Below, piece by piece: positions 1 through 1,150 of a stretch of DNA of 33,064 nucleotides. The notes beneath the pieces are model-generated. The model ran no database searches. It saw only the letters and a list, made by a program, of their open reading frames with translations, and was not told the origin of the DNA. This DNA is from Candidatus Nomurabacteria bacterium (GTDB lineage Bacteria > Patescibacteriota > Minisyncoccia > Phycocordibacterales > UBA9973), in assembly GCA_025361085.1 (NCBI GenBank), contig JANYAX010000028.1, forward strand, positions 1-33,064, read 5' to 3'. Numbering within the stretch: position 1 is the stretch's first letter; the number at the start of each line of letters is the position of its first letter. The position numbers and the translations under genes are program-made.

Positions 1-1150
<1,150 letters not shown>

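Follow-up and report, generated by a model that had tools for sequence, protein, structure and literature searches.

The helix 18 pseudoknot of the 16S rRNA in a Candidatus Nomurabacteria genome reads UCC at positions 505–507 and GGA at positions 524–526, where E. coli has GGC and GCC. With high confidence, we regard this as the normal pseudoknot that a functional 16S rRNA has in the Paceibacteria/Parcubacteria, in which the pairing is selected while the letters are free, and which was reached stepwise and then inherited. The UCC/GGA form is ordinary for its clade; the pattern across the phylum is mildly interesting.

The 16S rRNA Gene and Its Helix 18

The window, i.e., the whole stretch analysed (33,064 nucleotides, contig JANYAX010000028.1), begins with the 5′ portion of a bacterial 16S rRNA gene on the minus strand (1149 to 1), which matches RF00177 over model positions 1–1163 at 981.5 bits (cut-off 50). 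It is the single 16S found in the source genome. E. coli K-12 rrsH was taken as the numbering reference. The window 16S aligns to it without gaps over 500–545, and the register obtained from the Infernal alignment to the Rfam model is the same. Since the Rfam model contains no pseudoknot pairs, its register is independent of the pseudoknot claim. Both the register and the letters proposed in an earlier note made from the sequence are thus borne out, the former by both alignments and the latter by that to K-12 rrsH. The features are as follows (all on the minus strand; placed by the K-12 rrsH alignment unless indicated otherwise).

1..1149, minus: 16S rRNA gene, 5′ three quarters, truncated by the contig end (RF00177 model 1–1163)
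661..665, minus: helix 18 lower stem, 5′ side, 500–504, GGGGC, partner of 541–545
658..660, minus: 505–507, UCC, GGC in E. coli (K-12 rrsH and Infernal alignments)
650..654, minus: helix 18 upper stem, 5′ side, 511–515, UCUCG
643..643, minus: C522, partner of G527 (the pair is A522-U527 in 28 of the 182 relatives sampled)
639..641, minus: 524–526, GGA, GCC in E. coli (K-12 rrsH and Infernal alignments)
638..638, minus: G527, which RsmG methylates in E. coli; still G here, with no RsmG found in the source genome
632..638, minus: 527–533, GCGGUAA as in E. coli, with G530 at 635
625..629, minus: helix 18 upper stem, 3′ side, 536–540, CGAGA
620..624, minus: helix 18 lower stem, 3′ side, 541–545, GCCCC

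Base by base, 505, 506 and 507 correspond to window positions 660 (U), 659 (C) and 658 (C), and 524, 525 and 526 to 641 (G), 640 (G) and 639 (A). The predicted pairs U505-A526, C506-G525 and C507-G524 are all Watson-Crick. The earlier note had described a compensated swap; all three pairs are indeed kept, but its extent is smaller, as only 505-526 and 506-525 differ from E. coli, and 507-524 is the same C-G pair. The two stems of helix 18 pair along their full length in the window with changed letters, and the loop segments 517–523 and 527–533, G530 included, are identical to those of E. coli K-12.

The nearest 16S relatives place the gene in the Paceibacteria/Parcubacteria: the closest are a Paceibacterota MAG (97.5% identity) and Parcubacteria RAAC4_OD1 (94.3%). 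The nearest relatives at 97.5, 94.3 and 93.6% 16S identity all share UCC/GGA.

Several further features were observed. At 16S position 921 the window has A in place of the U921 of E. coli (GAAUAGACGGGG), and the pairing partner lies past the contig end. The 3′ end of a tRNA-Lys(CUU), GATTCCCTCACGGGGCACA, recurs about 156 bases downstream (window 2340–2322 and 2184–2166, minus strand) with a hairpin-like sequence between the two copies; judged from the letters, the repeat may possibly be a trace of an integrated element. A LOOT RNA (RF03000, 71.9 bits) is located at 26729–26849 on the plus strand. In E. coli itself, a few assemblies, L322 (NZ_CP091836.1) and L418 (NZ_CP061914.1) among them, have one 16S copy adjoining clpB that is only about 90–95% identical to the usual one, and helix 18 of the L322 copy differs from K-12. 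These odd copies could be an assembly error or foreign.

Distribution of the UCC/GGA Form

A scan for the GGA form (pattern GTGYCAGCMGGAGCGGTAA, one genome per species) yielded at least 117 stretches. Of the 117 matches listed, 113 are 16S genes; L007, L063, L103 and L110 fit the pattern and were rejected as not 16S. UCC stands at 505–507 in 112 of the 113 GGA-bearing 16S genes listed, the sole exception being L112, with GCC at 505–507 and G505 facing A526. Nearly all of the matches listed belong to Patescibacteria, their titles naming Parcubacteria/Patescibacteria groups or unnamed bacteria, apart from three bins with other names. The groups represented among them are Nomura-, Kaiser-, Adler-, Zambryski-, Portnoy-, Nealson-, Staskawicz-, Wolfe-, Yanofsky-, Kuenen-, Gribaldo- and Campbellbacteria. 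The other-named bins with a UCC/GGA 16S are assigned to Methylobacter, Bacteroidetes and Dehalococcoidia. The latter two look mis-binned, because their 16S sequences share 92 to 94% identity with those of Parcubacteria. The 16S of the Methylobacter bin (L054, JAUXTH010000163.1) has only about 80% identity to the sampled Patescibacteria and is probably mis-binned as well.

From this distribution among the matches listed it follows that UCC/GGA is a clade trait; its absence outside Patescibacteria is judged from the same matches and from published primer coverage. The earlier note had asked how often the state occurs and in which clades. By the matches listed the state is not exceptional: UCC/GGA turned out to be an established character state in a large clade of Patescibacteria.

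Variation and Covariation across Patescibacteria

The phylum sample comprised 379 genomes, 193 of which match a loop pattern with free letters at 524–526; the survey thus covers genes whose remaining loop fits the search pattern, and looser patterns applied to 160 of the sampled genomes turned up extra forms. Positions 505–507 were read from the DNA in 182 genes, or 181 without the artefact L296; L321 is outside the counts. In both L296 and L321, non-16S sequence directly adjoins GGCCAGC just upstream of 16S position 516, so 505–507 cannot be read in place; by its sequence, the junction looks like an intron boundary.

About 15 pseudoknot forms occur across the 181 genes. The commonest (n = 182) are UGC/GCA (69), GGC/GCC (44), UGC/GCC (23), UCC/GGA (11) and GGC/GCA (10), followed by GCC/GGC (4), ACC/GGU (3) and CGC/GCU (3); the remainder, including UAC/GUA and CCC/GGG, are found once or twice each. 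That the change was notable in a conserved region, as first suggested, is overstated, since the pseudoknot is highly variable across Patescibacteria and variation at 525–527 is already built into primers.

The 506-525 pair is Watson-Crick in 181 of 181 genes, with G-C, C-G, A-U and U-A all occurring and neither G-G nor C-C seen in the sampled Patescibacteria 16S, and 507-524 is C-G in every gene except the artefact. Pairing at 505-526 is found in 78% (n = 181), the remainder being U-C, G-A or C-U; because about 22% of the sampled genomes are mismatched there, this pair is not strictly required. Positions 522 and 527 covary as well, with C-G in 154 genes and A-U in 28 (n = 182). When the 3′ letters were permuted, which leaves the relatedness among genomes in the shuffles, pairing reached a mean of 71% and a maximum of 77% at 506-525 against the observed 100%, and a mean of 46% and a maximum of 57% at 505-526 against the observed 78%; the maximum at 522-527 was 82%. 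The A522-U527 loci are L242–L245, L249, L250, L272, L274, L277–L281, L284–L288, L291–L295, L297, L299–L301 and L315.

Evolutionary History and Proposed Explanation

A single-gene 16S tree was built with FastTree with the pseudoknot and 522-527 sites masked and K-12 rrsH as the outgroup, and changes were counted by parsimony. The counts are about 43 for the full state, 28 at 505-526, 21 at 506-525 and 9 at 522-527. The pairing exceeds chance by the 112 of 113 listed GGA genes with UCC and by the shuffles, and the changes counted at 506-525 bear on the relatedness that the shuffles leave in. The tree puts the origin of UCC/GGA from UGC/GCA at the root of a 71-tip clade (support 99), followed by a few later gains and several reversals. 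The basal step toward this clade, from GGC/GCC to UGC/GCA, is weakly supported (14). At 505-526, G-A and U-C are the two states that lie one step from both G-C and U-A. Both are extant in relatives, and the two letters therefore need not have been swapped simultaneously.

The position, structure and covariation of the helix 18 pseudoknot are textbook knowledge, resting on original covariation and mutagenesis work. The pseudoknot 505–507/524–526 is described as essential for positioning G530 in decoding (PMC7356742). In the explanation that we propose, selection would act on the pairing and not on the letters, with the three-pair bridge holding G530 at the decoding site. GGC/GCC would have become UGC/GCA by a swap at 505-526, possibly via a G505-A526 or U505-C526 mismatch; UGC/GCA, the likely forerunner, would then have given UCC/GGA by a flip of 506-525 from G-C to C-G; and UCC/GGA would have been inherited across most of the clade, where several more changes and reversals would have followed. 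We infer the order of these steps and the neutrality of the changes. Ribosomes with UCC/GGA are expected, as far as the sequence tells, to decode normally.

Alternative Explanations

Loss of RsmG, the m7G527 methylase, may lie behind this history. It would be a cause of the proposed explanation and not an exclusive alternative to it: with recognition by the methylase gone, the constraint on the 530 loop would be relaxed and its letters would be free to drift while paired, even G527 itself to U, together with A522. We consider this possible but tentative. No match to RsmG (PF02527) was found in the source genome, which is given as 100% complete, so m7G527 is not predicted in its 16S. In the phylum, strong matches (over 90 bits) are present in 29 of 379 genomes, in line with the report that rsmG is kept in under 10% of CPR bacteria vs. 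over 90% elsewhere (PMC12641178). The canonical GGC/GCC is found in 17 of 21 genomes with RsmG vs. 27 of 160 without it, G505 in 21 of 21 vs. 41 of 160, and U527 in 0 of 21 vs. 28 of 160; none of the 28 A522-U527 genomes has a strong RsmG match. Nevertheless, the tree offers only 4 to 7 independent contrasts, hardly any of them informative (sign test p about 1), and because these are too few, shared ancestry may explain the association. Furthermore, four genomes with RsmG have non-canonical pairs (three GGC/GCA, one GAC/GUC), and the idea was framed after the source genome had been seen. That RsmG loss freed the 530 loop of Patescibacteria, a decoding element of very high conservation, for repeated compensatory changes, including G527 to U with A522, is a claim to which we give slightly less credence still.

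An adaptive change, e.g., resistance to an aminoglycoside that attaches near 526-527, seems improbable. Mutations in the 530 loop occur in streptomycin resistance, but UCC/GGA follows phylogeny, the titles of the matches listed name many habitats, and no test here indicates drug selection.

Even less probable is that the 506-525 flip is tied to the loss of the conserved Pro90 of the ribosomal protein S12, which lies in a loop near 526-527. In the phylum sample Pro90 is absent in 9 of 9 UCC/GGA genomes with S12 vs. 13 of 149 others, those nine having Ile, Gly or Asn in its place or lacking one residue. This association, however, tracks one order, and an out-of-sample check on named UCC/GGA genomes showed Pro90 retained in Portnoybacteria, Nealsonbacteria, Staskawiczbacteria, Wolfebacteria and Yanofskybacteria. 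As a general rule the coupling is refuted by these genomes from outside the window's order. With regard to S12 itself, Pro90 of the motif KDLPGVRY is lost in much of the window's order: the source-genome protein (G000 contig 32:3925-4209, L231) has Ile there, and S12 of the Kaiser- and Zambryskibacteria type has a one-residue deletion (KDIGxRY and similar).

An error of sequencing or assembly, or decay of this 16S copy, has next to no probability: the window 16S is truncated by the contig end, but the identical six letters are found in at least 112 other assemblies and the helix 18 stems and 517–533 are otherwise intact, and recurrence in independent genomes rules out sequencing error, against which the earlier note, too, had argued.

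Implications and Comparison with Known Systems

The normal, inherited pseudoknot that we favour provides natural variants on which a classical decoding-site structure can be tested, with many forms of three pairs in one phylum and living one-step intermediates at 505-526 beside strict pairing at 506-525. It also gives a structural explanation for the failure of the widely used 515F primer to match many Patescibacteria. In a partial coverage of the literature, no paper was found stating pseudoknot compensation in Parcubacteria 16S rRNA.

The primer 515F_Mod, GTGYCAGMAGBNKCGGTVA (PMC10943839), already allows variation at 525–527 in Patescibacteria, and V4-EXT (PMC13271367) likewise accommodates their variation at the 515F site. 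The degeneracy of these primers at 525, 526 and 527 (also 522 and 532) covers the variation seen here; the accessible text of both papers, in contrast, is framed in terms of primer mismatch, and pseudoknot compensation is absent from it. The source genome, without a detectable RsmG, resembles the CPR bacteria with reduced ribosome biogenesis (PMC12641178); unlike the present analysis, that paper in its accessible part draws no link between rsmG loss and 530-loop variation.

With the helix 18 (530-loop) pseudoknot of E. coli, that of the window shares its positions, the three pairs, C-G at 507-524, the G530 loop and the paired stems. The two differ at 505-526 and 506-525, where the G-C and G-C of E. 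coli are replaced in the window by U-A and C-G.
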